Shown in pieces: positions 1,835 through 37,900 of a DNA stretch of 64,000 bases. Source of the DNA: Odiellus spinosus. Lineage: Eukaryota > Arthropoda > Arachnida > Opiliones > Phalangiidae. A model generated the notes under the pieces. The model was not told where the DNA came from. It did no database searches and worked only from the letters and a program-made list of their open reading frames with translations. Positions within the stretch are counted from its first letter, which is position 1. The number at the start of each line of letters is the position of its first letter. The stretch is from contig OY987233.1 of NCBI GenBank assembly GCA_963920705.1, positions 12,945,459 to 13,009,458 on the forward strand, given 5' to 3'. The translations under genes were made by a program, and so were the position numbers.

Positions 1835-2505
1835 TTTTCAAGGGGTTCATTTTTTCAAGGGGTTCAAATTTCAATGGGTAAAAATTTTCTAGGAGCTCAT
1901 TTTTTTTGAAGAGGTTAATTTTTTCAAGGGGTAAAATTTTTTCAAGAGATTCATTTTTAAAGAGGTCTATTTTTTCAAAGGGTCTATTTTTTAAATGGGT
2001 CTATTTTTTAAATGGGTCTATTTTTTAAATGGGTCTATTTTTCAAAGCGTCTATTCTTTCAAGATGTGTATTTTTTCAAGGGGTCTAATTTTTAAATGGA
2101 TCTGTTTTTCAAGGGGTCTATTTTTTTCACGGGGTCTATTTTTTTCACGGGGTCTGTTTTTTTTCAAGGGATCTATTTTTTCAAGGGATCTTTTTTCAAG
2201 GGGTCTATTTTTTAGAGGGAGCTATTTTTTAAAGGGTCTTTTTTCGAGGGATCTTTTTTCAAGGGGTCTATTTTTGCGATCGATCTACTTTTCCGATGGA
2301 TCTACTTTTTCCAGGGGTCCATTTTTTCCAGAGGTCTATTTTTTAGGGGAATCCATTTTTTCAGGGGGTATAATTTTCCAAGGGGTCTATTTTTTTCAAG
2401 GGAGCTAATTTTTCAAAGGGTCTTTTTTCAAGGTATCTTTTTTCAGGGGGTCTATTTTTTTTCAAGGGTCTATTTTTTCATGGTTCTATTTGTTCAAGGG
2501 GTCTA
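1835..2505 (+). repeat. 20-22-bp array, left outer layer
   Basis: About 30 degenerate copies of a unit close to CAAGGGGTCTATTTTTT. Variants include GGGATC, GGGAGC, AAATGGGTC and CACGGGGTC. The inverse array lies at 36591-36965. A distinctive variant pair (GGGAGCTAATTTTTC followed by AAAGGGTCTTTTTTC, about 2400-2430) recurs in inverted form at about 36620-36655 with one difference. Confidence 0.9.
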
Positions 2506-2817
2506 TTTTTTCCAAGGGGTACCCCTTGGAAAAAAATCAAAAAAAAAAAGTCGAAATTTTTCCAAGGGGCCCCTAGGCAAAAAATCAAAAAAAAAAAAAA
2601 AAAAGCCGAAATACACTCCCTGTAAAACAAATAATCAAAAATTTAACCAGGGTACCCCTTGTAAAAAAAAATAAATACACCCCCAGTAAAATAAATAATC
2701 AAAAATTTTCCAAGGGGTACCCCTTGTAAAAAAATATATATATACACCCCCTGTAAAATAAATAATCAAAAATTTTACAAGGGGTACCCCTTGTAAAAAA
2801 TAATATGCCACCTGTAA
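2506..2817. repeat. GGTACC-palindrome zone, left end
   Basis: Several ~65-bp units, each with an AAGGGGTACCCCTT core. At 2506-2535 the core extends to a perfect 30-bp palindrome (half: TTTTTTCCAAGGGGT). At 2773-2798 it is a perfect 26-bp palindrome (half: TTTTACAAGGGGT). Degenerate copies sit near 2565, 2650 and 2716. Between cores run TAAATACACCCCCTGTAAAA and TAAATAATCAAAAATTTT. The same module occurs inverted at 36471-36590. Confidence 0.9.
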
Positions 2818-4765
2818 AATAAATCTCAAAAATCTCAATTTTCCAAATCTTAAAAATCTCAATTTTCCAAATCTTAAAAATCTCAATTTTCCAAATCTTA
2901 AAATTCTCAATTTTCCAAATCTTAAAATTCTCAATTTTCCAAATCTTAAAAATCTCAATTTTCCAAATCTTAAAAATCTCAATTTTCCAAATCTTAAAAA
3001 TCTCAATTTTCCAAATCTTAAAAATCTCAATTTTCCAAATCTTAAAAATCTCAATTTTCCTCCAAATCTTAAAAATCTCAATTTTCCTCCAAATCTTAAA
3101 AATCTCAATTTTCCAAATCTTAAAAATCTCAATTTTCCAAATCTTAAAAATCTCAATTTTCCAAATCTTAAAAATCTCAATTTTCCAAATCTTAAAAATC
3201 TCAATTTTCCAAATCTTAAAAATCTCAATTTTCCAAATCTTAAAAATCTCAATTTTCCAAATCTTAAAAATCTCAATTTTCCAAATCTTAAAAATCTCAA
3301 TTTTCCAAATCTTAAAAATCTCAATTTTCCAAATCTTAAAAATCTCAATTTTCCAAATCTTAAAAATCTCAATTTTCCAAATCTTAAAAATCTCAATTTT
3401 CCAAATCTTAAAAATCTCAATTTTCCTCCAAATCTTAAAAATCTCAATTTTCCAAATCTTAAAAATCTCAATTTTCCAAATCTTAAAAATCTCAATTTTC
3501 CAAATCTTAAAAATCTCAATTTTCCAAATCTTAAAAATCTCAATTTTCCAAATCTTAAAAATCTCAATTTTCCAAATCTTAAAAATCTCAATTTTCCAAA
3601 TCTTAAAAATCTCAATTTTCCAAATCTTAAAAATCTCAATTTTCCAAATCTTAAAAATCTCAATTTTCCAAATCTTAAAAATCTCAATTTTCCAAATCTT
3701 AAAAATCTCAATTTTCCAAATCTCAAAAATCTCAATTTTCCAAATCTCAAAAATCTCAATTTTCCAAATCTCAAAAATCTCAATTTTCCAAATCTCAATT
3801 TTCCAAATCTCAATTTTCCAAATCTTAAAAATCTCAATTTTCCAAATCTTAAAAATCTCAATTTTCCAAATCTTAAAAATCTCAATTTTCCAAATTTTAA
3901 AAATCTCAATTTTCCAAATCTCAAAAATCTCAATTTTCCAAATCTCAAAAATCTCAATTTTCCAAATCTCAAAAATCTCAATTTTCCAAATCTCAAAAAT
4001 CTCAATTTTCCAAATCTCAATTTTCCAAATCTCAAAAATCTCAATTTTCCAAATCTCAAAAATCTCAATTTTCCAAATCTCAAAAATCTCAATTTTCCAA
4101 ATCTCAAAAATCTCAATTTTCCAAATCTTAAAAATCTCAATTTTCCAAATCTCAAAAATCTCAATTTTCCAAATCTCAAAAATCTCAATTTTCCAAATCT
4201 CAAAAATCTCAATTTTCCAAATCTCAAAAATCTCAATTTTCCAAATCTCAAAAATCTCAATTTTCCAAATCTCAAAAATCTCAATTTTCCAAATCTCAAA
4301 AATCTCAATTTTCCAAATCTCAAAAATCTCAATTTTCCAAATCTCAAAAATCTCAATTTTCCAAATCTCAAAAATCTTAATTTTCCAAATCTCAAAAATC
4401 TCAATTTTCCAAATCTCAAAAATCTTACTTTTCCAAATCTCAAAAATCTCACTTTTCCAAATCTCAAAAATCTCAATTTTCCAAATCTCAAAAATCTCAA
4501 TTTTCCAAATCTCAAAAATCTCAATTTTCCAAATCTCAAAAATCTCAATTTTCCAAATCTCAAAAATCTCAATTTTCCAAATCTCAAAAATCTCAATTTT
4601 CCAAATCTCAAAAATCTCAATTTTACAAATATCAAAAATCTCAATTTTCCAGATCTCAAAATCTGAATTTCCCAAATCTCAAAAATCTCAATTTTCCAAA
4701 TCTCAAAAATCTCAATTTTCCAAATCTCAATTTTCCAAATCTCAATTTTCCAAATCTCAATTTTC
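2818..4765 (+). repeat. 24-bp satellite array, left arm
   Basis: About 80 copies of a 24-bp unit formed by a 15-bp motif, CAATTTTCCAAATCT, plus a 9-bp extension, CAAAAATCT. Up to about 3720 the extension mostly reads TAAAAATCT; beyond that it mostly reads CAAAAATCT, so the array is layered by variant. A few units have lost the 9-bp part (near 3790 and 4015). Because 15 and 24 are multiples of three, several frames stay open for hundreds of codons. Confidence 0.95.
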
Positions 4766-7700
4766 CAAACCTTTTTTTACAGGGGGTGTATTTATTATTT
4801 TTATTTTTTACAGGGGGTGTATTTATTATTTTTATTTTTTACAGGGGGTGTATTTATTATTTTTAATTTTCACAGGGGGTGTATTTATTATTTTTATTTT
4901 TTACAGGGGGTGTATTTATTATTTTAATTTTTTACAGGGGGTGTATTTATTATTTTTATTTTTTTACAGGGGGTGTATTTATTATTTTTATTTTTTACAA
5001 TCTTAATTTTCCAAATCTCAATTTTCCAAATCTCAATTTTCCAAATCTCAATTTTCCAAATCTCAATTTTCCAAATCTCAATTTTCCAAATCTCAATTTT
5101 CCAAATCTCAATTTTCCAAACCTCAATTTTCCAAACCTCAATTTTCCCAACCTCAATTTTCCAAACCTTTTTTTACAGGGGGTGTATTTATTATTTTCAT
5201 TTTTTACAGCGGGTGTATTTATTATTTTTAATTTTTTACAGGGGGTGTATTTATTATTTTTATTTTTTTACAGGGGGTGTATTTATTATTTTTATTTTTT
5301 ACAGGGGGTGTATTTATTATTTTTATTTTTTTACAGGGGGTGTATTTATTATTTTTATTTTTTTATAGGGGTGTATTTATTATTTTTATTGTTTTACAGG
5401 GGGTGTAGTTATTATTTTTATTTTATTACAGGGGGTGTATTTATTATTTTTATTTTTTACAGGGGGTGTATTTATTATTTTTATTTTTTACAGGGGGTGT
5501 ATTTATTATTTTTATTATTTACAGGGGGTGTATTTATTATTTTTATTTTTTACAATCTTAATTTTCCAATTCTCAATTTTCCAAAACTCAATTTTCCAAA
5601 TCTCAAAAATCTCAATTTTCCAAATCTCAAAAATCTCACTTTTCCAAATCTCAAAAATCTCACTTTTCCAAATCTCAAAAATCTCACTTTTCCAAATCTC
5701 AAAAATCTCAATTTTCCAAATCTCAAAAATCTCAATTTTACAAATCTCAAAAATCTCAATTTTCCAAATCTCAAAAATCTCAATTTTCCAAATCTCAAAA
5801 ATCTCAATTTTCCAAATCTCAAAAATCTCAATTTTCCAAATCTCAAAAATCTCAATTTTCCAAATCTCAAAAATCTCAATTTTCCAAATCTCAAAAATCT
5901 CAATTTTCCAAATCTCAATTTTCCAAATCTCAATTTTCCAACTCTCAATTTTCCAAACCTTTTTTTACAGGGGGTGTATTTTTTATTTTTATTTTTTACA
6001 GGGGGTGTATTTATTATTTTTATTTTTTACAGGGGGTGTATTTATTATTTTTATTTTTTACAGGGGGTGTATTTATTATTTTTATTTTTTACAGGGGGTG
6101 TATTTATTATTTTTAATTTTCACAGGGGGTGTATTTATTATTTTTATTTTTTACAGGGGGTGTATTTATTATTTTCATTTTTTACAGGGGGTGTATTTAT
6201 TATTTTTAATTTTTTACAGGGGGTGTATTTATTATTTATATTTTTTTTACAGGGGGTGTATTTATTATTTTTATTTTTTACAGGGGGTGTATTTATTATT
6301 TTTATTTTTTACAGGGGGTGTATTTATTATTTTTATTTTTTTACAGGGGTGTATTTATTATTTTTATTTTTTTATAGGGGTGTATTTATTATTTTTATTT
6401 TTTTACAGGGGGTGTAGTTATTATTTTCATTTTATTACAGGGGGTGTATTTATCATTTTTATTTTTTACAGGGGGTGTATTTATTATTTTTATTTTTTAC
6501 AATCTTAATTTTCCAATTCTCAATTTTCCAAATCTCAATTTTCCAAATCTCAATTTTCCAAATCTCAAAAATCTCAATTTTCCAAATCTCTAAAATCTCA
6601 CTTTTCCAAATCTCAAAAATCTCACTTTTCCAAATCTCAAAAATCTCAATTTTCCAAATCTCAAAAATCTCAATTTTACAAATCTCAAAAATCTCAATTT
6701 TCCAGATCTCAAAATCTGAATTTCCCAAATCTCAAAAATCTCAATTTTCCAAATCTCAAAAATCTCAATTTTCCAAATCTCAATTTTCCAAATCTCAATT
6801 TTCCAAATCTCAATTTTCCAAATCTCAATTTTCCAAACCTTTTTTTACAGGGGGTGTATTTATTATTTTTATTTTTTACAGGGGGTGTATTTATTATTTT
6901 TATTTTTTACAGGGGGTGTATTTATTATTTTTAATTTTCACAGGGGGTGTATTTATTATTTTTATTTTTTACAGGGGGTGTATTTATTATTTTAATTTTT
7001 TACAGGGGGTGTATTTATTATTTTTATTTTTTTACAGGGGGTGTATTTATTATTTTTATTTTTTACAATCTTAATTTTCCAAATCTCAATTTTCCAAATC
7101 TCAATTTTCCAAATCTCAATTTTCCAAATCTCAATTTTCCAAATCTCAATTTTCCAAATCTCAATTTTCCAAATCTCAATTTTCCAAATCTCAATTTTCC
7201 AAACCTCAATTTTCCAAACCTCAATTTTCCCAACCTCAATTTTCCAAACCTTTTTTTACAGGGGGTGTATTTATTATTTTCATTTTTTACAGCGGGTGTA
7301 TTTATTATTTTTAATTTTTTACAGGGGGTGTATTTATTATTTTTATTTTTTTACAGGGGGTGTATTTATTATTTTTATTTTTTACAGGGGGTGTATTTAT
7401 TATTTTTATTTTTTTACAGGGGGTGTATTTATTATTTTTATTTTTTTATAGGGGTGTATTTATTATTTTTATTGTTTTACAGGGGGTGTAGTTATTATTT
7501 TTATTTTATTACAGGGGGTGTATTTATTATTTTTATTTTTTACAGGGGGTGTATTTATTATTTTTATTTTTTACAGGGGGTGTATTTATTATTTTTATTA
7601 TTTACAGGGGGTGTATTTATTATTTTTATTTTTTACAATCTTAATTTTCCAATTCTCAATTTTCCAAAACTCAATTTTCCAAATCTCAAAAATCTCAATT

Positions 7701-10700
7701 TTCCAAATCTCAAAAATCTCACTTTTCCAAATCTCAAAAATCTCACTTTTCCAAATCTCAAAAATCTCACTTTTCCAAATCTCAAAAATCTCAATTTTCC
7801 AAATCTCAAAAATCTCAATTTTACAAATCTCAAAAATCTCAATTTTCCAAATCTCAAAAATCTCAATTTTCCAAATCTCAAAAATCTCAATTTTCCAAAT
7901 CTCAAAAATCTCAATTTTCCAAATCTCAAAAATCTCAATTTTCCAAATCTCAAAAATCTCAATTTTCCAAATCTCAATTTTCCAAATCTCAATTTTCCAA
8001 CTCTCAATTTTCCAAACCTTTTTTTACAGGGGGTGTATTTTTTATTTTTTACAGGGGGTGTATTTATTATTTTTATTTTTTACAGGGGGTGTATTTATTA
8101 TTTTTATTTTTTACAGGGGGTGTATTTATTATTTTTATTTTTTACAGGGGGTGTATTTATTATTTTTAATTTTCACAGGGGGTGTATTTATTATTTTTAT
8201 TTTTTACAGGGGTGTATTTATTATTTTCATTTTTTACAGGGGGTGTATTTATTATTTTTAATTTTTTACAGGGGGTGTATTTATTATTTTTATTTTTTTT
8301 ACAGGGGGTGTATTTATTATTTTTATTTTTTACAGGGGGTGTATTTATTATTTTTATTTTTTACAGGGGGTGTATTTATTATTTTTATTTTTTTACAGGG
8401 GTGTATTTATTATTTTTATTTTTTTACAGGGGGTGTATTTATCATTTTTATTTTTTACAGGGGGTGTATTTATTATTTTTATTTTTTACAATCTTAATTT
8501 TCCAATTCTCAATTTTCCAAATCTCAATTTTCCAAATCTCAATTTTCCAAATCTCAAAAATCTCAATTTTCCAAATCTCAAAAATCTCACTTTTCCAAAT
8601 CTCAAAAATCTCACTTTTCCAAATCTCAAAAATCTCAATTTTCCAAATCTCAAAAATCTCAATTTTACAAATCTCAAAAATCTCAATTTTCCAGATCTCA
8701 AAATCTGAATTTCCCAAATCTCAAAAATCTCAATTTTCCAAATCTCAATTTTCCAAATCTCAATTTTCCAAATCTCAATTTTCCAAATCTCAATTTTCCA
8801 AACCTTTTTTTACAGGGGGTGTATTTATTATTTTTATTTTTTACAGGGGGTGTATTTATTATTTTTATTTTTTACAGGGGGTGTATTTATTATTTTTAAT
8901 TTTCACAGGGGGTGTATTTATTATTTTTATTTTTTACAGGGGGTGTATTTATTATTTTAATTTTTTACAGGGGGTGTATTTATTATTTTTATTTTTTTAC
9001 AGGGGGTGTATTTATTATTTTTATTTTTTACAATCTTAATTTTCCAAATCTCAATTTTCCAAATCTCAATTTTCCAAATCTCAATTTTCCAAATCTCAAT
9101 TTTCCAAATCTCAATTTTCCAAATCTCAATTTTCCAAACCTCAATTTTCCAAACCTCAATTTTCCCAACCTCAATTTTCCAAACCTTTTTTTACAGGGGG
9201 TGTATTTATTATTTTCATTTTTTACAGCGGGTGTATTTATTATTTTTAATTTTTTACAGGGGGTGTATTTATTATTTTTATTTTTTTACAGGGGGTGTAT
9301 TTATTATTTTTATTTTTTACAGGGGGTGTATTTATTATTTTTATTTTTTTACAGGGGGTGTATTTATTATTTTTATTTTTTTATAGGGGTGTATTTATTA
9401 TTTTTATTGTTTTACAGGGGGTGTAGTTATTATTTTTATTTTATTACAGGGGGTGTATTTATTATTTTTATTTTTTACAGGGGGTGTATTTATTATTTTT
9501 ATTTTTTACAGGGGGTGTATTTATTATTTTTATTATTTACAGGGGGTGTATTTATTATTTTTATTTTTTACAATCTTAATTTTCCAATTCTCAATTTTCC
9601 AAAACTCAATTTTCCAAATCTCAAAAATCTCAATTTTCCAAATCTCAAAAATCTCACTTTTCCAAATCTCAAAAATCTCACTTTTCCAAATCTCAAAAAT
9701 CTCACTTTTCCAAATCTCAAAAATCTCAATTTTCCAAATCTCAAAAATCTCAATTTTACAAATCTCAAAAATCTCAATTTTCCAAATCTCAAAAATCTCA
9801 ATTTTCCAAATCTCAAAAATCTCAATTTTCCAAATCTCAAAAATCTCAATTTTCCAAATCTCAAAAATCTCAATTTTCCAAATCTCAAAAATCTCAATTT
9901 TCCAAATCTCAAAAATCTCAATTTTCCAAATCTCAATTTTCCAAATCTCAATTTTCCAACTCTCAATTTTCCAAACCTTTTTTTACAGGGGGTGTATTTT
10001 TTATTTTTATTTTTTACAGGGGGTGTATTTATTATTTTTATTTTTTACAGGGGGTGTATTTATTATTTTTATTTTTTACAGGGGGTGTATTTATTATTTT
10101 TATTTTTTACAGGGGGTGTATTTATTATTTTTAATTTTCACAGGGGGTGTATTTATTATTTTTATTTTTTACAGGGGGTGTATTTATTATTTTCATTTTT
10201 TACAGGGGGTGTATTTATTATTTTTAATTTTTTACAGGGGGTGTATTTATTATTTTAATTTTTTTTACAGGGGGTGTATTTATTATTTTTATTTTTTACA
10301 GGGGGTGTATTTATTATTTTTATTTTTTACAGGGGGTGTATTTATTATTTTTATTTTTTTACAGGGGTGTATTTATTATTTTTATTTTTTTATAGGGGTG
10401 TATTTATTATTTTTATTTTTTTACAGGGGGTGTAGTTATTATTTTCATTTTATTACAGGGGGTGTATTTATCATTTTTATTTTTTACAGGGGGTGTATTT
10501 ATCATTTTTATTTTTTACAGGGGGTGTATTTATTATTTTTATTTTTTACAATCTTAATTTTCCAATTCTCAATTTTCCAAATCTCAATTTTCCAAATCTC
10601 AATTTTCCAAATCTCAAAAATCTCAATTTTCCAAATCTCAAAAATCTCACTTTTCCAAATCTCAAAAATCTCACTTTTCCAAATCTCAAAAATCTCAATT

Positions 10701-10983
10701 TTCCAAATCTCAAAAATCTCAATTTTCCAAATCTCAAAAATCTCAATTTTCCAAATCTCAAAAATCTCAATTTTCCAAATCTCAAAAATCTCAATTTTCC
10801 AAATCTCAAAAATCTCAATTTTCCAAATCTCAAAAATCTCAATTTTCCAAATCTCAAAAATCTCAATTTTCCAAATCTCAAAAATCTCAATTTTCCAAAT
10901 CTCAAAAATCTCAATTTTCCAGATCTCAAAAATCTCAATTTCCCAAATCTCAAAAATCTCAATTTTCCAAATCTCAATTTTCC
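4766..10983 (+). repeat. Higher-order repeat, ~2.05 kb x3, left arm
   Basis: Three consecutive copies of a composite block: 31-bp units, a pure 15-bp array, more 31/32-bp units, a 24-bp array containing CACTTTTCC variants, more 31/32-bp units, then a short 24/15-bp array. The 31-bp unit is ACAGGGGGTGTATTTATT followed by ATTTTTATTTTTT. A private variant beginning CCAGATCTCAAAATCTG marks the copies at 4649, 6702 and 8691, with a modified version at 10919. Shared substitutions such as TTACAGCGGGTG recur at the same place in each copy. Confidence 0.9.
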
Positions 10984-13435
10984 AAACCTTTTTTTACAGG
11001 GGGTGTATTTATTATTTTTATTTTTTACAGGGGGTGAATTTATTATTTTTATTTTTTACAGGGGGTGTATTTATTATTTTTATTTTTTTACAGGGGGTGT
11101 ATTTATTATTTTTATTTTTTTATAGGGGTGTATTTATTATTTTTATTTTTTTACAGGGGGTGTAGTTATTATTTTTATTTTATTACAGGGGGTGTATTTA
11201 TCATTTTTATTTTTTACAGGGGGTGTATTTATTATTTTTATTTTTTACAATCTTAATTTTCCAATTTTCAATTTTCCAAATCTCAATTTTCTAAATCTCA
11301 ATTTTCCAAATCTCAATTTTCCAAATCTCAATTTTCCAAATCTCAATTTTCCAAACCTCAATTTTCCAAACCTCAATTTTCCAAACCTCAATTTTCCCAA
11401 CCTCAATTTTCCAAAGCTTTTTTTACAGGGGGTGTATTTATTATTTTCATTTTTTACAGCGGGTGTATTTATTATTTTTAATTTTTTACAGGGGGTGTAT
11501 TTATTATTTTTATTTTTTTACAGGGGGTGTATTTATTATTTTTCTTTTTTACAGGGAGTGTATTTATTATTTTTATTTTTTACAGGGGGTGTATTTATTA
11601 TTTTCATTTTTTTTAGGGGGTGTATTTATTATTTTTAATTTTTTACAGGGGGTGTATTTATTATTTTTAATTTTTTACAGGGGGTGTATTTATTATTTTT
11701 ATTTTTTTACAGGGGGTGTATTTATTATTTTTATTTTTACAGGGGGTGTATTTATTATTTTTATTTTTTTACAGGGGGTGTATTTATTATTTTTATTTTT
11801 TTATAGGGGTGTATTTATTATTTTTATTTTTTTACAGGGGGTGTAGTTATTATTTTTATTTTATTACAGGGGGTGTATTTATCATTTTTATTTTTTACAG
11901 GGGGTGTATTTATCATTTTTATTTTTTACAGGGGGTGTATTTATTATTTTTATTTTTTACAGGGGGTGTATTTATTATTTTTATTATTTACAGGGGGTGT
12001 ATTTATTATTTTTATTTTTTACAATCTTAATTTTCCAATTTTCAATTTTCCAAATCTCAATTTTCCAAATCTCAATTTTCCAAATCTCAATTTTCCATAT
12101 CTCAATTTTCCAAACCTCAATTTTCCAAACCTCAATTTTCCCAACCTCAATTTTCCAAACCTTTTTTTACAGGGGGTGTATTTATTATTTTTATTTTTTA
12201 CAGCGGGTGTATTTATTATTTTTAATTTTTTACAGGGGGTGTATTTATTATTTTTATTTTTTTATAGGGGTGTATTTATTATTTTTATTTTTTACAGGGG
12301 GTGTATTTATTATTTTTGTTTTTTTACAGGGGGTGTATTTATTATTTTTATTTTTTTATAGGGTGTATTTATTATTTTTATTTTTTTACAGGGGGTGTAG
12401 TTATTATTTTTATTTTATTACAGGGGGTGTATTTATTATTTTTATTTTTTACAGGGGGTGTATTTATTATTTTTATTTTTTACAGGGGGTGTATTTATTA
12501 TTTTTATTATTTACAGGGGGTGTATTTATTATTTTTATTATTTACAGGGGGTGTATTTATTATTTTTATTTTTTACAATCTTAATTTTACAATTCTCAAT
12601 TTTCCAAATCTCAATTTTCCAAATCTCAAAAATCTCAATTTTCCAAATCTCAAAAATCTCATTTTTCCAAATCTCAAAAATCTCAATTTTCCAAATCTCA
12701 AAAATCTCAATTTTCCAAATCTCAAAAATCTCAATTTTCCAAATCTCAAAAATCTCAATTTTCCAAATCTCAAAAATCTCAATTTCCCAAATCTCAAAAA
12801 TCTCAATTTTCCAAATCTCAATTTTCCAAATCTCAATTTTTTAAACCTTTTTTTTACAGGGGGTGTATTTATTATTTTTATTTTTTACAGGGGGTGTATT
12901 TATTATTTTTATTTTTTACAGGGGGTGTATTTATTATTTTTATTTTTTACAGGGGGTGTATTTATTATTTTTATTTTTTACAGGGGGTGTATTTATTATT
13001 TTTATTTTTTTACAGGGGGTGTATTTATTATTTTTATTTTTTTATAGGGGTGTATTTATTATTTTTATTTTTTTACAGGGGGTGTAGTTATTATTTTTAT
13101 TTTATTACAGGGGGTGTATTTATTATTTTTATTTTTTACAAGGGGTGTATTTATTATTTTTATTTTTTACAGGGGGTGTATTTATTATTTTTATTATTTA
13201 CAGGGGGTGTATTTATTATTTTTATTTTTTACAATCTTAATTTTCCAATTCTCAATTTTCCAAATCTCAATTTTCCAAATCTCAATTTTCCAAATCTCAA
13301 TTATCCAAATCTCAATTATCCAAATCTCAATTTTCCAAATCTCAATTTTCCAAATCTCAATTTTCCCAACCTCAATTTTCCAAACCTCAATTTTCCAAAC
13401 CTCAATTTTCCCAACCTCAATTTTCCAAACCTTTT
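10984..13435 (+). repeat. Alternating 31-bp and 15/24-bp blocks, diverged
   Basis: The same components as the adjacent higher-order repeat, but copies are shortened and rearranged. 31/32-bp blocks alternate with 15-bp arrays (about 11250-11415, 12026-12165, 13233-13430) and 24-bp arrays (about 12588-12845). No gene is present. Confidence 0.85.
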
Positions 13436-16433: not shown

Positions 16434-16465
16434 CCTCTGTAAAAAAAATAAAAATAATAAATACA
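16400..16465. other. Orientation switch of the giant inverted repeat
   Basis: The last plus-oriented unit (ACAGGGGGTGTATTTATT, then T-rich) runs directly into TTTTTACACCCTCTGTAAAA, the first unit in reverse orientation, near 16,430. There is essentially no spacer, so the arms could form a nearly loopless hairpin. To the left the plus strand is T/G-rich; to the right it is A/C-rich. Confidence 0.85.
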
Positions 16466-25100: not shown

Positions 25101-28100
25101 AAATAATAAAAATAATAAATACACCCCCTGTAAAAAAAATAAAAATAATAAATACATCCCCTGTAAAAAAAAAAAATAATAAATACACCCCCTGTAAAAA
25201 AATAAAAATAATAAATACACCCCCTGTAAAAAAATAAAAATAATAAATACACCCCCTGTAAAAAAATAAAAATAATAAATACACCCCCTGTAAAAAATAA
25301 AAATAATAAATACACCCCCTGTAAAAAAATAAAAATAATAAATACACCCCCTGTAAAAAAATAAAAATAATAAATACACCCCCTGTAAAAAAATAAAAAT
25401 AATAAATACACCCCCTGTAAAAAAATAAAAATAATAAATACACCCCCTGTAAAAAAAAGGTTGGGGAAATTGAGGTTGGGAAAATTGAGGTTGGGAAAAT
25501 TGAGGTTGGGAAAATTGAGGTTGGGAAAATTGAGGTTTGGAAAATTGAGGTTTGGAAAATTGAGGTTTGGAAAATTGAGGTTTGGAAAATTGAGGTTTGG
25601 AAAATTGAGGTTTGGAAAATTGAGGTTTGGAAAATTGAGGTTTGGAAAATTGAGGTTTGGAAAATTGAGGTTTGGAAAATTGAGGTTTGGAAAATTGAGG
25701 TTTGGAAAATTGAGGTTTGGAAAATTGAGGTTTGGAAAATTGAGGTTTGGAAAATTGAGGTTTGGAAAATTGAGGTTTGGAAAATTGAGGTTTGGAAAAT
25801 TGAGGTTTGGAAAATTGAGGTTTGGAAAATTGAGGTTTGGAAAATTGAGGTTTGGAAAATTGAGGTTTGGAAAATGGAGATTTGGAAAATTGAGATTTGG
25901 AAAATTGAGATTGTAAAAAATAAAAATAATAAATACACCCCCTGTAAAAAAATTAAAAAACAAATACACCCCCTGTAAAAAAATAAAAATAACAAATACA
26001 CCCCCTGTAAAAAAATAAAAATAAATACACCCCCTGTAAAAAAATAAATACATCCCCTGTAAAAAAAATAAAAATAACAAATACACCCCCTGTAAAAAAA
26101 TAAAAAAACAAATACACCCCCTGTAAAAAAATAAAAATAACAAATACACCCCCTGTAAAAAAATAAAAATTATAAATACACCAACTGTAAAAAAATAAAA
26201 ATAACAAATACACCCCCTGTAAAAAAAAAAAAAATAATAAATACACCCCCTGTAAAAAAATAAAAATAATAAATACACCCCCTGTAAAAAAATAAAAATA
26301 ATAAATACACCCCCTGTAAAAAAATAAAAATAATAAATACACCCCCTGTAAAAAAATAAAAATTATAAATACACCCCCTGTAAAAAAATAAAAATAATAA
26401 ATACACCCCCTGTAAAAAATAAAAATAATAAATACACCCCCTGTAAAAAAATAAAAATTATAAATACACCCCCTGTAAAAAAATAAAAATAATAAATACA
26501 CCCCCTGTAAAAAAATAAAAATAATAAATACACCCCCTGTAAAAAAAGGTTGGGGAAATTGAGGTTGGGAAAATTGAGGTTGGGAAAATTGAGGTTGGGA
26601 AAATTGAGGTTTGGAAAATTGAGGTTTGGAAAATTGAGGTTTGGAAAATTGAGGTTTGGAAAATTGAGGTTTGGAAAATTGAGGTTTGGAAAATTGAGGT
26701 TTGGAAAATTGAGGTTTGGAAAATTGAGGTTTGGAAAATTGAGGTTTGGAAAATTGAGGTTTGGAAAATTGAGGTTTGGAAAATGGAGATTTGGAAAATT
26801 GAGATTTGGAAAATTGAGATTGTAAAAAATAAAAATAATAAATACACCCCCTGTAAAAAAATAAAAATAACAAATACACCCCCTGTAAAAAAATAAAAAT
26901 TATAAATACACCCCCTGTAAAAAAATAAAAATAATAAATACACCCCCTGTAAAAAAATAAAAATAATAAATACACCCCCTGTAAAAAATAAAAATAATAA
27001 ATACACCCCCTGTAAAAAAAGGTTGGGAAAATTGAGGTTGGGAAAATTGAGGTTGGGAAAATTGAGGTTGGGAAAATTGAGGTTTGGAAAATTGAGGTTT
27101 GGAAAATTGAGGTTTGGAAAATTGAGATTTGGAAAATTGAGATTTGGAAAATTGAGATTTGGAAAATTGAGATTTGGAAAATTGAGATTTGGAAAATTGA
27201 GGTTTGGAAAATTGAGATTTGGAAAAATGAGATTTGGAAAATTAAGATTTGGAAAATTGAGATTTGGAAAATTGAGATTGTAAAAAATAAAAATAATAAA
27301 TACACCCCCTGTAAAAAAATAAAAATAACAAATACACCCCCTGTAAAAAAATAAAAATAACAAATACACCCCCTGTAAAAAATAAAAATAACAAATACAC
27401 CCCCTGTAAAAAAATAAAAAAACAAATACACCCCCTGTAAAAAAATAAAAATAACAAATACACCCCCTGTAAAAAAATAAAAATAACAAATACACCCCCT
27501 GTAAAAAAATAAAAATAATAAATACACCCCCTGTAAAAAAATAAAAATAATAAATACACCCCCTGTAAAAAAATAAAAATAATAAATACACCCCCTGTAA
27601 AAAAATAAAAATAATAAATACACCCCCTGTAAAAAATAAAAATAATAAATACACCCCCTGTAAAAAAATAAAAATAAAAAATACACCCCCTGTAAAAAAA
27701 GGTTTGGAAAATTGAGGTTGGGAAAATTGAGGTTGGGAAAATTGAGGTTTGGAAAATTGAGGTTTGGAAAATTGAGGTTTGGAAAATTGAGGTTTGGAAA
27801 ATTGAGGTTTGGAAAATTGAGGTTTGGAAAATTGAGGTTTGGAAAATTGAGGTTTGGAAAATTGAGGTTTGGAAAATTGAGGTTTGGAAAATTGAGGTTT
27901 GGAAAATTGAGGTTTGGAAAATTGAGGTTTGGAAAATTGAGGTTTGGAAAATTGAGGTTTGGAAAATTGAGATTTGGAAAATTGAGATTGTAAAAAATAA
28001 AAATAATAAATACACCCCCTGTAAAAAAAATAAAAATAATAAATACACCCCCTGTAAAAAAATAAAAATAATAAATACACCCCCCTGTAAAAAAATAAAA

Positions 28101-31100
28101 ATAATAAATACACCCCCTGTAAAAAAATAAAAATAATAAATACACCCCCTGTAAAAAAATAAAAATAAAAAATACACCCCCTGTAAAAAAAGGTTTGGAA
28201 AATTGAGGTTGGGAAAATTGAGATTGGGAAAATTGAGGTTGGGAAAATTGAGGTTGGGAAAATTGAGGTTGGGAAAATTGAGGTTTGGAAAATTGAGGTT
28301 TGGAAAATTGAGGTTTGGAAAATTGAGGTTTGGAAAATTGAGGTTTGGAAAATTGAGATTTGGAAAATTGAGGTTTGGAAAATTGAGGTTTGGAAAATTG
28401 AGGTTTGGAAAATTGAGATTTGGAAAATTGAGATTGTAAAAAATAAAAATAATAAATACACCCCCTGTAAAAAAATAAAAAAACAAATACACCCCCTGTA
28501 AAAAAATAAAAATAACAAATACACCCTATGTAAAAAAATAAAAATAATAAATGCACCCCCTGTAAAAAAATAAAAATAATAAATACACCCCCTGTAAAAA
28601 AATAAAAATAAATACATCCCCTGTAAAAAAAGGTTTGGAAAATTGAGGTTGGGAAAATTGAGGTTGGGAAAATTGAGGTTGGGAAAATTGAGGTTGGGAA
28701 AATTGAGGTTGGGAAAATTGAGGTTGGGAAAATTGAGGTTTGGAAAATTGAGGTTTGGAAAATTGAGGTTTGGAAAATTGAGGTTTGGAAAATTGAGGTT
28801 TGGAAAATTGAGGTTTGGAAAATTGAGGTTTGGAAAATTGAGGTTTGGAAAATTGAGGTTTGGAAAATTGAGATTTGGAAAATTGAGATTGTAAAAAATA
28901 AAAATAATAAATACACCCCCTGTAAAAAAAATAAAAATAATAAATACACCCCCTGTAAAAAAATAAAAATAATAAATACACCCCCATGTAAAAAAATAAA
29001 AATAATAAATACACCCCCTGTAAAAAAATAAAAATAATAAATACACCCCCTGTAAAAAAATAAAAATAAAAAATACACCCCCTGTAAAAAAAGGTTTGGA
29101 AAATTGAGGTTGGGAAAATTGAGGTTGGGAAAATTGAGGTTGGGAAAATTGAGGTTGGGAAAATTGAGGTTGGGAAAATTGAGGTTGGGAAAATTGAGGT
29201 TTGGAAAATTGAGGTTTGGAAAATTGAGGTTTGGAAAATTGAGGTTTGGAAAATTGAGGTTTGGAAAATTGAGGTTTGGAAAATTGAGGTTTGGAAAATT
29301 GAGGTTTGGAAAATTGAGGTTTGGAAAATTGAGGTTTGGAAAATTGAGGTTTGGAAAATTGAGGTTTGGAAAATTGAGATTTGGAAAATTGAGATTGTAA
29401 AAAATAAAAATAATAAATACACCCCCTGTAAAAAAATAAAAAAACAAATACACCCCCTGTAAAAAAATAAAAATTATAAATACACCCCCTGTAAAAAAAT
29501 AAAAATAATAAATACACCCCCTGTAAAAAAATAAAAATAATAAATACACCCCCTGTAAAAAAATAAAAATAATAAATACACCCCCTGTAAAAAAAATAAA
29601 AATAATAAATACACCCCCTGTAAAAAAATAAAAATAATAAATACACCCCCCTGTAAAAAAATAATAATAAATACACCCCCTGTAAAAAAATAAAAATAAT
29701 AAATACACCCCCTGTAAAAAAATAAAAATAATAAATACACCCCCTGTAAAAAAAGGTTTGGAAAATTGAGGTTTGGAAAATTGAGGTTGGGAAAATTGAG
29801 GTTGGGAAAATTGAGGTTGGGAAAATTGAGGTTTGGAAAATTGAGATTTGGAAAATTGAGATTTGGAAAATTGAGATTGTAAAAAATAAAAATAATAAAT
29901 ACACCCCCTGTAAAAAAATAAAAAAACAAATACACCCCCTGTAAAAAAATAAAAATAACAAATACACCCCCTGTAAAAAAATAAAAATAAATACACCCCC
30001 TGTAAAAAAATAAAAATAAATACATCCCCTGTAAAAAATAAAAATAACAAATACACCCCCTGTAAAAAAATAAAAAAACAAATACACCCCCTGTAAAAAA
30101 AATAAAAATAATAAATACACCCCCTGTAAAAAAATAAAAATAATAAATACACCCCCTGTAAAAAAATAAACATAATAAATACACCCCCTGTAAAAAAATA
30201 AAAATAATAAATACACCCCCTGTAAAAAAATAAAAATAATAAATACACCCCCTGTAAAAAAATAAAAATAATAAATACACCCCCTGTAAAAAAATAAAAA
30301 TAATAAATACACCCCCTGTAAAAAAATAAAAATAATAAATACACCCCCTGTAAAAAAAGGTTTGGAAAATTGAGGTTTGGAAAATTGAGGTTGGGAAAAT
30401 TGAGGTTGGGAAAATTGAGGTTGGGAAAATTGAGGTTGGGAAAATTGAGGTTGGGAAAATTGAGGTTGGGAAAATTGAGGTTGGGAAAATTGAGGTTGGG
30501 AAAATTGAGGTTGGGAAAATTGAGGTTGGGAAAATTGAGGTTGGGAAAATTGAGGTTGGGAAAATTGAGGTTGGGAAAATTGAGGTTTGGAAAATTGAGG
30601 TTTGGAAAATTGAGGTTTGGAAAATTGAGATTTGGAAAATTGAGATTGTAAAAAATAAAAATAATAAATACACCCCCTGTAAAAAAATAAAAAACAAATA
30701 CACCCCCTGTAAAAAAATAAAAATAACAAATACACCCCCTGTAAAAAAATAAAAATAATAAATACACCCCCTGTAAAAAATAAAAATAAATACATCCCCT
30801 GTAAAAAAATAAAAATAACAAATACACCCCCTGTAAAAAAATAAAAAAACAAATACACCCCCTGTAAAAAAATAAAAAACAAATACACCCCCTGTAAAAA
30901 ATAAAAATAACAAATACACCCCCTGTAAAAAAATAAAAATAATAAATACACCCCCTGTAAAAAAATAAAAATAATAAATACACCCCCTGTAAAAAAATAA
31001 AAATAATAAATACACCCCCTGTAAAAAAATAAAGATAAATACATCCCCTGTAAAAAAATAAAAATAACAAATACACCCCCTGTAAAAAAATAAAAAACAA

Positions 31101-33890
31101 ATACACCCCCTGTAAAAAAATAAAAAAACAAATACACCCCCTGTAAAAAAATAAAAATAACAAATACACCCCCTGTAAAAAAATAAAAATTATAAATACA
31201 CCCTCTGTAAAAAAAATAAAAATAATAAATACACCCCCTGTAAAAAAATAAAAATAATAAATACACCCCCTGTAAAAAAAATAAAAATAATAAATACACC
31301 CCCTGTAAAAAAATAAAAATAATAAATACACCCCCTGTAAAAAAAGGTTTGGAAAATTGAGGTTGGGAAAATTGAGGTTGGGAAAATTGAGGTTGGGAAA
31401 ATTGAGGTTGGGAAAATTGAGGTTGGGAAAATTGAGGTTGGGAAAATTGAGGTTGGGAAAATTGAGGTTGGGAAAATTGAGGTTGGGAAAATTGAGGTTG
31501 GGAAAATTGAGGTTTGGAAAATTGAGGTTTGGAAAATTGAGATTTGGAAAATTGAGATTTGGAAAATTGAGATTTGGAAAATTGAGATTGTAAAAAATAA
31601 AAATAATAAATACACCCCCTGTAAAAAAATAAAAAACAAATACACCCCCTGTAAAAAAATAAAAATAATAAATACACCCCCTGTAAAAAAATAAAAATAA
31701 TAAATACACCCCCTGTAAAAAATAAAAATAATAAATACACCCCCTGTAAAAAAATAAAAATAATAAATACACCCCCTGTAAAAAAATAAAAATAATAAAT
31801 ACACCCCCTGTAAAAAAATAAAAATAATAAATACACCCCCTGTAAAAAAATAAAAATAATAAATACACCCCCTGTAAAAAAATAAAAATAATAAATACAC
31901 CCCCTGTAAAAAAATAAAAATAATAAATACACCCCTTGTAAAAAAATAAAAATAATAAATACACCCCCTGTAAAAAAAGGTTTGGAAAATTGAGGTTGGG
32001 AAAATTGAGGTTGGGAAAATTGAGGTTGGGAAAATTGAGGTTGGGAAAATTGAGGTTGGGAAAATTGAGGTTGGGAAAATTGAGGTTTGGAAAATTGAGG
32101 TTTGGAAAATTGAGATTTGGAAAATTGAGATTTGGAAAATTGAGATTGTAAAAAATAAAAAAAAACAAATACACCCCCTGTAAAAAAATAAAAAAAACAA
32201 ATACACCCCCTGTAAAAAAATAAAAATAACAAATACACCCCCTGTAAAAAAATAAAAATAAATACACCCCCTGTAAAAAATAAAAATAAATACATCCCCT
32301 GTAAAAAAATAAAAATAACAAATACATCCCCTGTAAAAAAATAAAAATAACAAATACACCCCCTGTAAAAAAATAAAAAAACAAATACACCCCCTGTAAA
32401 AAAATAAAAATAATAAATACACCCCCTGTAAAAAAATAAAAATAATAAATACACCCCTTGTAAAAAAATAAAAATAATAAATACACCCCCTGTAAAAAAA
32501 GGTTTGGAAAATTGAGGTTGGGAAAATTGAGGTTGGGAAAATTGAGGTTGGGAAAATTGAGGTTGGGAAAATTGAGGTTGGGAAAATTGAGGTTGGGAAA
32601 ATTGAGGTTGGGAAAATTGAGGTTTGGAAAATTGAGGTTTGGAAAATTGAGATTTGGAAAATTGAGATTGTAAAAAATAAAAAAAACAAATACACCCCCT
32701 GTAAAAAAATAAAAAAAACAAATACACCCCCTGTAAAAAAATAAAAATAACAAATACACCCCCTGTAAAAAAATAAAAATAAATACACCCCCTGTAAAAA
32801 AATAAAAATAAATACATCCCCTGTAAAAAAATAAAAATAACAAATACATCCCCTGTAAAAAAATAAAAATAACAAATACACCCCCTGTAAAAAAATAAAA
32901 ATAATAAATACACCCCCTGTAAAAAAATAAAAATAAATACACCCCCTGTAAAAAAATAAAAATAATAAATACACCCCCTCTAAAAAAATAAAAATAATAA
33001 ATACACCCCCTGTAAAAAAATAAAAATAATAAATACACCCCCTGTAAAAAAATAAAAATAATAAATACACCCCCTGTAAAAAAATAAAAATAATAAATAC
33101 ACCCCCTGTAAAAAAATAAAAATAATAAATACACCCCCTGTAAAAAAATAAAAATAATAAATACACCCCCTGTAAAAAAATAAAAATAATAAATACACCC
33201 CATGTAAAAAAAGGTTGGGAAAATTGAGGTTGGGAAAATTGAGGTTGGGAAAATTGAGGTTGGGAAAATTGAGGTTGGGAAAATTGAGGTTGGGAAAATT
33301 GAGGTTGGGAAAATTGAGGTTGGGAAAATTGAGGTTGGGAAAATTGAGGTTGGGAAAATTGAGGTTGGGAAAATTGAGGTTGGGAAAATTGAGGTTGGGA
33401 AAATTGAGGTTGGGAAAATTGAGGTTGGGAAAATTGAGGTTGGGAAAATTGAGGTTGGGAAAATTGAGGTTTGGAAAATTGAGATTTGGAAAATTGAGAT
33501 TTGGAATATTGAGATTTGGAAAATTGAGATTGTAAAAAATAAAAATAATAAATACACCCCCTGTAAAAAAATAAAAAAACAAATACACCCCCTGTAAAAA
33601 AAATAAAAATAACAAATACACCCCCTGTAAAAAAATAAATATAATAAATACACCCCCTGTAAAAAATAAAAATAAATACATCCCCTGTAAAAAAATAAAA
33701 ATAACAAATACACCCCCTGTAAAAAAATAAAAAACAAATACACCCCCTGTAAAAAAATAAAAATAACAAATACACCCCCTGTAAAAAAAAAAAATAATAA
33801 TAAATACACCCCCTGTAAAAAAATAAAAATAATAAATACACCCCCTGTAAAAAAATAAAAATAATAAATACACCCCCTGTAAAAAAAGGT
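22151..33890 (-). repeat. Right arm: alternating 32-bp and 15-bp blocks with multi-kb duplication
   Basis: Over 11 kb of reverse-oriented 32-bp units alternating with 15-bp arrays. These are graded from GGTTGGGAAAATTGA through GGTTTGGAAAATTGA to GATTTGGAAAATTGA. Rare variants occur as pairs: the TATGTAAAAAAATAA..AATGCACC unit (about 22460 and 28526), the AATAATAATAAATAC unit (about 22850 and 29660), AATAAACATAATAAATAC (about 23437 and 30167) and ACACCCTCTGTAAAAAAAAT (about 24531 and 31200). These pairs mark a duplicated segment, roughly 22.4-25.3 and 28.5-31.3 kb, with later expansions. Confidence 0.85.
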
Positions 33891-34470
33891 TTGGAAAATT
33901 GAGGTTTGGAAAATTTGAGGTTTGGAAAATTTGAGGTTTGGAAAATTTGAGGTTTGGAAAATTTGAGGTTTGGAAAATTTGAGATTTGGAAAATTTGAGA
34001 TTTGGAAAATTTGAGATTTGGAAAATTTGAGATTTGGAAAATTTGAGATTTGGAAAATTTGAGATTTGGAAAATTTGAGATTTGGAAAATTTGAGATTTG
34101 GAAAATTTGAGATTTGGAAAATTTGAGATTTGGAAAATTTGAGATTTGGAAAATTTGAGATTTGGAAAATTTGAGATTTGGAAAATTTGAGATTTGGAAA
34201 ATTGAGATTTGGAAAATTGAGATTTGGAAAATTGAGGTTTGGAAAATTGAGGTTTGGAAAATTGAGGTTTGGAAAATTGAGGTTTGGAAAATTGAGGTTT
34301 GGAAAATTGAGGTTTGGAAAATTTGAGATTTGGAAAATTTGAGATTTGGAAAATTTGAGATTTGGAAAATTTGAGATTTGGAAAATTTGAGATTTGGAAA
34401 ATTGAGATTTGGAAAATTGAGATTTGGAAAATTGAGATTGTAAAATTGAGATTTGGAAAATTGAGATTGT
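33891..34470 (-). repeat. 16-bp variant array, right arm
   Basis: Here the 15-bp unit has gained one T (GGAAAATTTGAGATTT), giving 16-bp units at about 33906-34200 and 34318-34400, with a 15-bp interlude between. Loss of the multiple-of-three period breaks the repeat-derived open frames differently here. Confidence 0.85.
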
Positions 34471-34668
34471 AAAAAAATAAAAATAATAAATACACCCACT
34501 GTAAAAGTAAAAATAAAAAATACACCCCCTGTAAAAAAAAATAAAAATAATAAATACACCCCCTGTAAAAAAATAAAAATAATAAATACACCCCCTGTAA
34601 AAAAAATAAAAATAATAAATACACCCCCTGTAAAAAAATAAAAATAATAAATACACCCCCTGTAAAAA
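34471..34668 (-). repeat. 32-bp block, right arm outer edge
   Basis: About six reverse-oriented 32-bp units, with some irregular copies (CACCCACTGTAAAAGTAAA), between the 16-bp array and the outer 24-bp array. Confidence 0.85.
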
Positions 34669-36470
34669 AAGGTTTGGAAAATTGAGGTTGGGAAAATTGA
34701 GGTTGGGAAAATTGAGATTTGGGAAAATTGAGATTTGGGAAAATTGAGATTTGGGAAAATTGAGATTTGGGAAAATTGAGATTTGGGAAAATTGAGATTT
34801 GGGAAAATTGAGATTTGGGAAAATTGAGATTTGGGAAAATTGAGATTTGGGAAAATTGAGATTTGGGAGATTTGAGATTTGGGAGATTTGGAAAATTGAG
34901 ATTTGGGAGATTTGGAAAATTGAGATTTGGGAGATTTGGAAAATTGAGATTTGGGAGATTTGGAAAATTGAAATTTGGGAGATTCGGAAAATTGAGATTT
35001 GGGAGATTCGGAAAATTGAGATTTGGGAGGTTCGGAAAATTGAGATTTGGGAGATTCGGAAAATTGAGATTTGGGAGATTCGGAAAATTGAGATTTGGGA
35101 GATTCGGAAAATTGAGATTTGGGAGATTCGGAAAATTGAGATTTGGGAGATTCGGAAAATTGAGATTTGGGAGATTCGGAAAATTGAGATTTGGGAGATT
35201 CGGAAAATTGAGATTTGGAAGATTCGGAAAATTGAGATTTGGAAGATTCGGAAAATTGAGATTTGGAAGATTCGGAAAATTGAGATTTGGGAGATTCGGA
35301 AAATTGAGATTTGGGAGATTCGGAAAATTGAGATTTGGGAGATTCGGAAAATTAAGATTTGGGAGATTCGGAAAATTGAGATTTGGGAGATTCGGAAAAT
35401 TGAGATTTGGGAGATTCGGAAAATTGAGATTTGGGAGATTCGGAAAATTGAGATTTGGGAGATTCGGAAAATTGAGATTTGGGAGATTCGGAAAATTGAG
35501 ATTTGGGAGATTCGGAAAATTGAGATTTGGGAGATTCGGAAAATTGAGATTTGGGAGATTCGGAAAATTGAGATTTGGGAGATTCGGAAAATTGAGATTT
35601 GGGAGATTCGGAAAATTGAGATTTGGGAGATTCGGAAAATTGAGATTTGGGAGATTCGGAAAATTGAGATTTGGGAGATTCGGAAAATTGAGATTTGGGA
35701 GATTCGGAAAATTGAGATTTTTGAGATTCGGAAAATTGAGATTTTTGAGATTCGGAAAATTGAGATTTTTGAGATTCGGAAAATTGAGATTTTTGAGATT
35801 CGGAAAATTGAGATTTTTGAGATTCGGAAAATTGAGATTTTTGAGATTCGGAAAATTGAGATTTTTGAGATTCGGAAAATTGAGATTTTTGAGATTCGGA
35901 AAATTGAGATTTTTGAGATTCGGAAAATTGAGATTTTTGAGATTCGGAAAATTGAGATTTTTGAGATTCGGAAAATTGAGATTTTTGAGATTCGGAAAAT
36001 TGAGATTTTTGAGATTCGGAAAATTGAGATTTTTGAGATTCGGAAAATTGAGATTTTTGAGATTCGGAAAATTGAGATTTTTGAGATTCGGAAAATTGAG
36101 ATTTTTGAGATTCGGAAAATTGAGATTTTTTGAGATTTGGAAAATTGAGATTTTTGAGATTTGGAAAATTGAGATTTTTGAGATTTGGAAAATTGAGATT
36201 TTTGAGATTTGGAAAATTGAGATTTTTGAGATTTGGAAAATTGAGATTTTTGAGATTTCCAAATTGAGATTTTTGAGATTTGGAAAATTGAGATTTTTGA
36301 GATTTGGAAAATTGAGATTTTTGAGATTTGGAAAATTGAGATTTTTGAGATTTGGAAAATTGAGATTTTTGAGATTTGGAAAATTGAGATTTTTGAGATT
36401 TGGAAAATTGAGATTTTTGAGATTTGGAAAATTGAGATTTTTGAGATTTGGAAAATTGAGATTTTTGAGA
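34669..36470 (-). repeat. 24-bp satellite array, right arm outer layer
   Basis: Counterpart of the 2818-4765 array, in opposite orientation. It is layered: 16-bp GGGAAAATTGAGATTT units to about 34860, 24-bp units with GGGAGATTCGG to about 35700, TTTTTGAGATTCGG units to about 36130, and TTTTTGAGATTTGG units to the end. The CpG-containing TTCGG variant is absent from the left arm and must have arisen and spread after the arms separated. Confidence 0.95.
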
Positions 36471-36590
36471 TTTATTTTACAGGGGATGTATTATTTTTTT
36501 TACAAGGGGTACCCCTTGTAAAATTTTTGATTGTTTATTTTACAGGGGGTGTATTTATTTTTTTTTTTTTTACAAGGGGTACCCCTTTTC
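36471..36590. repeat. GGTACC-palindrome zone, right end
   Basis: Two cores, one a perfect 26-bp palindrome at 36498-36523 with the same half-site (TTTTACAAGGGGT) as 2773-2798. The sequence between cores, read on the minus strand, matches the left zone including TAAAATAAACAATCAAAAA. Confidence 0.9.
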
Positions 36591-36965
36591 AGGGGGTGTA
36601 TATATAAAAATAGACCCCTTGAAAAAAGACCCTTTGAAAAAATAGCTCCCTTGAAAAACTAGACCCCTTTGAAAAAATAGACCCCTTGAAATAATACACC
36701 CTTGAAAAAAAATTGACCCTTGGAAAAAAATTGACCCTTCGAAAAAAATTGACCCTTGGAAAAAAATTGACCCTTGGAAAAAAATTGACCCTTGGAAAAA
36801 AATAGACCCCTTGAAAAAAATAGACCCCTTGAAAAAAATAGACCCCTTGAAAAAAATAGACCCCTTGAAAAAAATATACCCCCTTAAAAAATACACCCCC
36901 TGAAAAAAAAAATAGACCCCCTGAAAACATACACTCCCTAAAAAATAGACCCCCTGAAAAACACA
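36591..36965 (-). repeat. 20-22-bp array, right outer layer
   Basis: Inverse of the 1835-2505 array: AAAAATAGACCCCTTG units and AAAAATTGACCCTTGG variants. The outermost 90 bp contain intermediate forms reading, on the minus strand, CAGGGGGTCTATT and CAGGGGGTGTATTTTTT. These link the 20-22-bp unit to the 31/32-bp unit. Confidence 0.9.
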
Positions 36966-37107
36966 CCCAATTTAATTTGAATCGAATTTCGATGGTATAA
37001 CTCTTGATCCGTGCATGTTGTCGACAATCAAACTGTTTTAATCCTGGTTCGAACTACGGCGTATTCCGTATTTGTTCAAGTCCATATAATAATATTAATG
37101 AGGCCCA
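36966..37107. other. Right flank of the satellite complex
   Basis: The first unique sequence after the arrays, with no gene. A tRNA B-box-like GTTCGAACC lies on the minus strand at about 37047-37055, but I find no matching A box at the right distance. Confidence 0.5.
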
Positions 37108-37735: not shown

Positions 37736-37900
37736 GTTTATCCAATTATTGTTCCTCCATGAGGGAAACTAACAAATATTTGTCATAAATCAGATGAGTT
37801 TATTTACGGAAGTACGAGTACTTGTTAAACTCAATGACACAAAGTTGGTACGACAAAATTCGTAAAGATTTTAGGGTGTTTCAAAACATTTGGTGCACCT

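Follow-up and report, generated by a model that had tools for sequence, protein, structure and literature searches.

A composite satellite block with two mirror-image arms in the genome of Odiellus spinosus

The 64,000-nucleotide stretch of Odiellus spinosus DNA analysed here (the window) contains a 35-kb block made of two mirror-image arms of short tandem repeats, ~14.6 kb on the left and ~20.5 kb on the right. The question that it raises is whether the two arms are halves of one giant inverted repeat, as an earlier note on this DNA proposed, and by what route such a mirror could have come about. The window has no undetermined bases. The same order of layers from outside to inside that the note described is indeed found in both arms: a degenerate 17/18-bp array (C) is followed by a palindrome zone (P), an array of the A repeat (15/24 bp) and an alternation of B blocks (31/32-bp repeat) and A blocks that continues to the axis (Table 1). 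The outermost A array is 1.95 kb long on the left and 1.8 kb on the right, and including it brings the A blocks to 17 on the left and 26 on the right, the same numbers as those of the B blocks. Homogeneity rises inward on both sides, with the outer layers being the most degenerate. Forms with GGGAGATT are restricted to the right outermost A array and occur in no other A block.

Table 1. Positions in the window of the layers of the repeat block and of the Pfam-matched frames on its right flank.
Feature	Position	Strand	Description
Left outer array C	1835..2520	+	Degenerate 17-bp unit TTTTTCAAGGGGTCTAT; holds GGGAGCTA variants at 2217 and 2400
Left palindrome zone P	2515..2820	.	GGGGTACCCC palindromes alternating with B-like units in - orientation
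Left outermost A array	2821..4773	+	24-bp unit AAATCTTAAAAATCTCAATTTTCC and relatives
Left inner arm	4773..16429	+	Alternating B (31/32-bp) and A (15/24-bp) blocks, 17 B and 16 A
Left higher-order repeat	5000-10988		2.0-2.1 kb, inside left inner arm
Symmetry axis	16400..16490	.	Head-to-head B units around ACACCCTCTGT; strong predicted hairpin
Right inner arm	16430..34670	-	Alternating B and A blocks, 26 B and 25 A
Right higher-order repeat	17890-20677		1,394 bp, inside right inner arm
Right outermost A array	34670..36475	-	24-bp units in 34872-36472
Right palindrome zone P'	36476..36600	.	Inverted counterpart of left P; B-like units in + orientation
Right outer array C'	36606..36965	-	
PTN/MK C-terminal domain frame	50,403-50,693		Pfam match
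CCDC53 of WASH complex frame	60,217-60,717		Pfam match
GMC oxidoreductase C-terminal domain frame	62,807-63,166		Pfam match

Common descent of all the unit types from a single motif is not claimed, as the likeness of A15 to B is at chance (50/60 shuffles). The corresponding figures were 0/60 for B against P and 2/60 for B against C17, and a control 25-bp unit from outside the block also gave 0/60 against A15 and against the right-arm C unit.

The strand of the A repeat divides the block cleanly in two. Its core, CAATTTTCC, occurs 269 times on the plus strand of the window, with 268 of these copies within 2,836-15,785, and 465 times on the minus strand, with 464 copies within 16,769-36,450. The remaining two copies lie outside the block, at 53,928 (+) and 41,949 (-), and within it there is not a single exception to the plus orientation of the left arm and the minus orientation of the right one. 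Exact copies of the B core, CAGGGGGTGTA, behave likewise in the inner arms, where they are on the plus strand in 4,780-16,401 (191 copies) and on the minus strand in 16,462-34,652 (272 copies). In the palindrome zones, the B core is on the minus strand at 2,743 on the left and on the plus strand at 36,543 and 36,590 on the right, and a single extra minus copy is found at 36,892, within the right outer array. Runs of B orientation were also mapped with up to two mismatches. As the B cores of each palindrome zone run against the inner B units of the same arm, B flips three times, and does so mirror-symmetrically. The claim that all repeat units flip once near 16,430 is therefore correct for the A core (268 copies left, 464 right), but not for the B core. 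The A units and the inner B units show the change of strand within an array, between long inverted subarrays, that characterizes arrays termed macro-dyads.

A comparison of the outer ends in both orientations shows that the mirror extends to them. At the junction of the palindrome zone with the 24-bp array, for which an inverted match almost base for base had been claimed, 114 of 122 ungapped positions are identical in the inverted orientation (93.4%, 5 gap columns), whereas the direct orientation gives 73% identity and 21 gap columns. The inverted score of 98.5 far exceeds the highest of 200 dinucleotide shuffles (37), and this P/A junction includes exact inverted stretches of 40 bp and 37 bp. 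The outer 17/18-bp arrays score 177 when inverted and 8 when direct, with a maximum of 57.5 in 200 shuffles. The rare variant GGGAGCTA, which had been reported as a pair shared by the outer arrays at about 2400 and 36640, is present at 2,217 and 2,400 (+) and at 36,643 (-) and nowhere else within 1-40,000. Since both the C arrays and the P/A transition align far better inverted than directly, the ends of the block are homologous and inverted.

This close mirror likeness is confined to the outer ends and, less strongly, the axis. The outermost 110-140 bp still match when inverted (score 27, which none of 200 shuffles reached), but the likeness is that of diverged array units, and it does not continue into the 134 bp beyond the ends (score 9, reached by 182 of 200 shuffles). 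The flanks are not mirrored: the best dust-filtered match is 22 bp (E 0.012), the best unfiltered one is 30 bp (E 2.8e-4) in low-complexity sequence, and a separate comparison of the flanks with each other is at chance. No conserved complex terminal sequence, which is expected of a foldback element, was found at both ends. Such an element would also be expected to have target-site duplications of 7-10 bp. There is no exact direct repeat of at least 8 bp between 1741-1880 and 36931-37060, and 130 of 300 random flank pairs have one. Direct pairs of 9 bp with one mismatch are found at 1809/36965 and 1782/36985, with about 3 expected by chance and with ends that are not sharply defined. No B, C or P copies within 3 mismatches are present in 1-1800 or beyond 36990 of the window.

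The flanks have repeats and genes of their own. Three frames on the right flank match Pfam models (Table 1) and, of the 10 frames scanned among the 14 listed with at least 90 codons, 7 had no match; the matches mark the window as animal DNA. Two tandem arrays, at 50761-51053 and 37665-37755, have units that carry TTTCCCGCC or TTTTCCCGCC, a motif that resembles the E2F site. Ten copies of TTCCCGCC are found on both strands of 36991-64000 (mean 0.41 and maximum 4 in 100 shuffles), nine of them within these two arrays. There are 8 copies of GGTCAGGGAAA in 36991-64000, five in a 41-bp array at 54618-54972 and the others at sites that include 44982-45030 and 40128; this sequence may mark a dispersed repeat family. 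In 51883-53192 a 28-bp array is enclosed by two 38-bp arrays to which it is related, all in the same orientation, which is a symmetric layering without inversion. A 107-bp tandem array at 48208-48790 has one frame that is open for 132 codons and has no Pfam match, and a 168-bp tandem duplication with 97% matches lies at 61313-61652 between the CCDC53 and GMC frames. On the left flank, a 23-bp array with AAGCTT in nearly every unit and 98% matches occupies 16-529, starting near the window edge.

At the axis, the two adjoining B blocks match each other better than any of the 42 other B blocks compared if rare variants are weighted (score 14.2; next best 6.9 and 11.65), and GTTATAAATACA, which is exclusive to these two blocks, occurs once per arm, at 16,202 and 16,610. 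The axis alignment has 335 columns, 11 of them with gaps, and 312 of its 324 ungapped positions are identical (96.3%), so that 12 differ (3.7%). An unweighted alignment fails to single out the axis pair, which scores 273 versus 277 for another block, and 16 of 500 unit shuffles reach the unweighted score. The order of units is not significant either, as 105 of 1000 order shuffles reach the weighted score. The symmetry of the axis thus appears to be supported by the content of its blocks and is not proven by their order. The axis strand is predicted to fold as a long hairpin of -51 kcal/mol (z -13.2), which beats all 200 shuffles, as does the predicted folding of each of three palindrome-zone stretches (z -7.6, -5.1 and -5.3).

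The transitions between A and B blocks tie the two arms together further. All 43 A-to-B junctions (17 left, 26 right) are within 3 edits of one 34-mer, 27 of them exactly, and all 41 B-to-A junctions (16 left, 25 right) are within 3 edits of one 39-mer. Both arms thus share conserved transitions from one intermingled satellite to the other, which is a further property of macro-dyads. By contrast, of 480 unit-phase joins of a 15-bp A to a 32-bp B unit, only 35 come within 3 edits of the A-to-B sequence, 2 of these within 1 edit. All A-B cassettes therefore appear to descend from one junction that either predates the separation of the arms or was exchanged between them. The polarity inside the A blocks is mirrored between the arms, like the strand. 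GAGG is nearer the centre than GAGA in 31 of the 31 A blocks that hold both (9/9 left, 22/22 right); the other 12 of the 43 A blocks (17 left and 26 right in total) are without one of the two motifs and were left out. The B-to-A junctions differ in form between the arms: on the left TTTTTTACAATCTTA is found in 13 of 16 and TTTTTTACAATCTCA in the three nearest the axis, while on the right TTTTTTACAATCTCA is found in 24 of 25 and TTTTTTACAATCTTA never.

Between the ends and the axis, the arms have diverged. They differ in length (~14.6 vs ~20.5 kb) and in higher-order period (2.0-2.1 kb vs 1,394 bp), as the earlier note had stated, and its conclusion that each arm evolved separately is supported by these arm-specific higher-order repeats. 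The left repeats are 2,068, 1,965 and 1,956 bp long, and the identity between neighbours is 99.9% with 133 gap columns in one pair and 99.1% with 421 in the other; the copies of the 1,394-bp right repeat are 99.6% identical (34 gap columns). All these identities are from pairwise alignments with gap columns excluded. In 83% of 199 cases, a rare B unit has its nearest relative within its own arm, with ~52% expected from the arm sizes. In the left B blocks from 13.3 kb (counted from the window start) outward, most B units are 31 bp long (71 vs 39 of 32 bp), whereas the 32-bp form prevails in the four left B blocks nearest the axis (45 vs 7 of 31 bp) and in the right arm (203 vs 43 of 31 bp). Given the arm-specific higher-order repeats, junction forms and B-unit lengths and the same-arm nearest relatives, the outer part of the left inner arm is best read as a recent amplification in that arm only. 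Mirror collinearity through the whole arms was rejected on a permutation test of the B-block order, which is not mirrored beyond chance: 858 of 2000 permutations were as good with the centre included and 1809 of 2000 without it. BLAST also gives inverted matches in the middle of the arms (2,480 bp at 86.7%, among the matches listed), which may represent generic cassette similarity or could be remnants of a longer original inverted repeat.

The most probable explanation, to which we give a probability of roughly 0.6, is that the block is a composite satellite with dyad symmetry, in which a small inverted seed was duplicated once and each arm then grew separately. The inverted origin common to both arms, which had been claimed previously, gains support from the outer transition and the cassette junctions that they share and from the mirrored polarity of the A blocks. 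The description of the block as one giant inverted repeat holds as far as the inverted repeat is concerned, but a giant founding event is less well supported. A small seed fits better than one 15-20 kb duplication because there is no collinearity between the ends and the axis, although age and turnover could erase the collinearity of a larger duplication too. We infer that the seed would have comprised the outer C array, the palindrome zone, the A array, at least one A-B cassette and central B units. Its single inverted duplication would most simply have come about when a broken or stalled end folded back and primed synthesis at a short inverted repeat like those that abound in the palindrome zone; fold-back pairing at short inverted sequences is described as a proposed route to large inverted duplications (PMC3907307). 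Unequal exchange, or a comparable copying process, would then have multiplied whole A-B cassettes as well as the units inside them in each arm on its own, bringing the arms to ~14.6 and ~20.5 kb and leaving the old ends and the axis in place. As a plain fold-back should copy unique flanking sequence, none of which is mirrored, either a second template switch or the arrival of a pre-mirrored unit would be needed. The block itself is most likely non-coding. Its effect is likely to be structural, in the form of predicted hairpin or cruciform potential, local instability and perhaps double-stranded RNA if it is transcribed, and not a selected function.

With no mirrored flank, the block could also descend from an element that was already mirrored on arrival, i.e. 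a foldback transposon. Such a non-autonomous, Mutator- or P-related DNA transposon, the tandem repeats of whose terminal inverted repeats (TIRs) ran away into a satellite, is a possible if doubtful source of the block. The block does have long inverted terminal repeats with internal tandem repeats, and its inverted arms of nested tandem repeats are degenerate outside, homogeneous inside and unequal in length. Furthermore, the mirror match stops where the arrays stop, and the flanks are unrelated. Published elements are described as having composite TIRs with tandem motifs and variable TIR length (PMC4022104, PMC3573991, PMC3169594), and one published Tm1 copy is likewise reported without target-site duplications. 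Against this, though as weak evidence, the ends of the block have no exact direct repeat of at least 8 bp, the 9-bp pairs with one mismatch are at about the chance level, a shared complex terminus is absent, and no transposase was found among the 12 frames scanned of 140 distinct frames with at least 90 codons.

A more elaborate scenario, which we consider rather unlikely, is that an old foldback-like palindrome inverted one A-B cassette, and that all later cassettes in both arms descend from it with junction and polarity kept. The mirrored frame of ends, junctions and axis would then be retained as hairpin formation drives copying. If this were true, short fold-back seeds and not megabase rearrangements would be the source of mirrored satellites, and the birth of a macro-dyad satellite would be recorded in one locus.

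It is improbable that the symmetry was created in the assembly, be it by a wrong join of two separate arrays or by a foldback read. Long tandem arrays are known misjoin sites, and the sequence at 16,430 is of that repeat type. However, the arms differ in length, B-unit length, higher-order repeats and B-A junction variant (TTTTTTACAATCTTA 13 times left, 0 right), and the mirrored outer transition at two unique flanks is independent of the join at 16,430. A simple foldback read, which the earlier note had already disfavoured, is unlikely because the axis should then be the most similar part of the block, yet 12 of its 324 ungapped positions differ (3.7%) and 11 columns have gaps.

We consider it very improbable that the block is a selected structure or product, such as a source of hairpin RNA, a cruciform or chromatin boundary element or a repetitive protein. 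The axis (z -13.2) and the three palindrome-zone stretches fold better than all 200 shuffles, and the conserved cassettes and inversion points of Tribolium madens are discussed as functional (PMC13081366). Against a selected structure stand the free turnover of the arms and the lack of an RNA family match, since a scan of the whole window with Rfam at the gathering threshold gave none; a tRNA scan of the whole window with the bacterial code also found none. A protein product could be suggested by the scarcity of stops. The strand that reads CAATTTTCC has 76 stop trinucleotides in the left and 36 in the right inner arm (4773-16429 on + and 16430-36490 on -) versus 1260 and 1716 on the opposite strand and ~506 and ~667 in dinucleotide shuffles, open frames of up to 3,132 codons span the repeats, and two long repeat frames match pentapeptide-repeat models above the curated cut-off. 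However, the unit sequences themselves lack stops whichever frame is read, so that this lack counts as one or two events, and pentapeptide-repeat models reward a 5-residue period, which a 15-bp unit produces in every frame. Stop-making substitutions are not depleted among the B-unit variants (9 of 38 distinct ones, 9.5 expected). Because all unit frames are open, the 15-bp unit imposes the 5-residue period and stop-making substitutions are as frequent as expected, the open frames are probably a by-product of the unit sequences, and it is unlikely that the block is coding. Exact B patterns of 30 and 28 bases had 0 hits in viral and prokaryote contigs, which has no bearing on other animals.

Layered expansion without inversion, in which amplification of the core pushes old repeats symmetrically to both edges, as described for human centromeres, is scarcely conceivable here: it would explain why the outer layers are the most degenerate and the inner ones more homogeneous on both sides, but it mirrors the order of layers and not the strand, whereas in this block strand, junctions and polarity are mirrored too, and the strand change of the A core (268 + left, 464 - right) rules it out.

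Among known systems, foldback elements share part of this architecture. In Tetris of Drosophila virilis, tandem repeats of the TIRs have grown into the TIR-220 satellite, and their number varies between copies (PMC4079207). Tetris thus resembles the block in having inverted arms with tandem repeats that expanded into satellite arrays, but its TIRs are described as reaching 1.7 kb and it has a terminal flanking domain and 8-10 bp target-site duplications, the latter two of which were not found here. Internal tandem motifs, in numbers that vary, are likewise part of the composite inverted repeats of the foldback-type elements FB4, Galileo and Tm1 (PMC4022104, PMC3573991, PMC3169594). However, the FB4 sample spans 0.6-2.3 kb and Galileo TIRs measure up to ~1.3 kb, compared with ~35 kb here, FB4 has conserved termini, none of which were found here, and copies of all three are dispersed.

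The closest published case that we found is that of the macro-dyad satellites of Tribolium madens, in which the macro-dyad symmetries of TmSat1 and TmSat2 were confirmed on HiFi reads (PMC13081366). In the literature searched, the term macro-dyad occurred only in this paper and in the reference list of one other, and a topic search at the level of titles gave no title naming such a block. Like the T. madens arrays as described there, the present block combines two intermingled satellites in two opposed subarrays, reaches a size of tens of kb, has conserved transition zones and hairpin potential, and is built of cassettes whose repeat number varies. In T. madens, however, inversion sites are conserved across arrays, the arrays number in the thousands in multi-megabase putative (peri)centromeric regions, the units are 225 and 704 bp long and the symmetry was checked on HiFi reads, whereas the block described here has a single axis at one locus and units of 15-32 bp, lies ~13 kb from the nearest Pfam-matched frame, has old degenerate outer layers and is known from assembled sequence alone.

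In summary, mirrored satellites are already known, and this block joins them as a clean example, set apart by short units, a single location near genes and old ends that have been preserved. New here are the A-to-B junction shared by 43 of 43 sites, the GAGG polarity in 31 of 31 A blocks and the reciprocal B blocks at the axis. A recent proposal gives mirrored satellites a role in shaping pericentromeric chromatin. The old mirrored ends of this single block, its recognisable axis and the recent growth of each arm on its own allow the order of events to be read in part, and strand-mirrored arrays need not be assembly errors.
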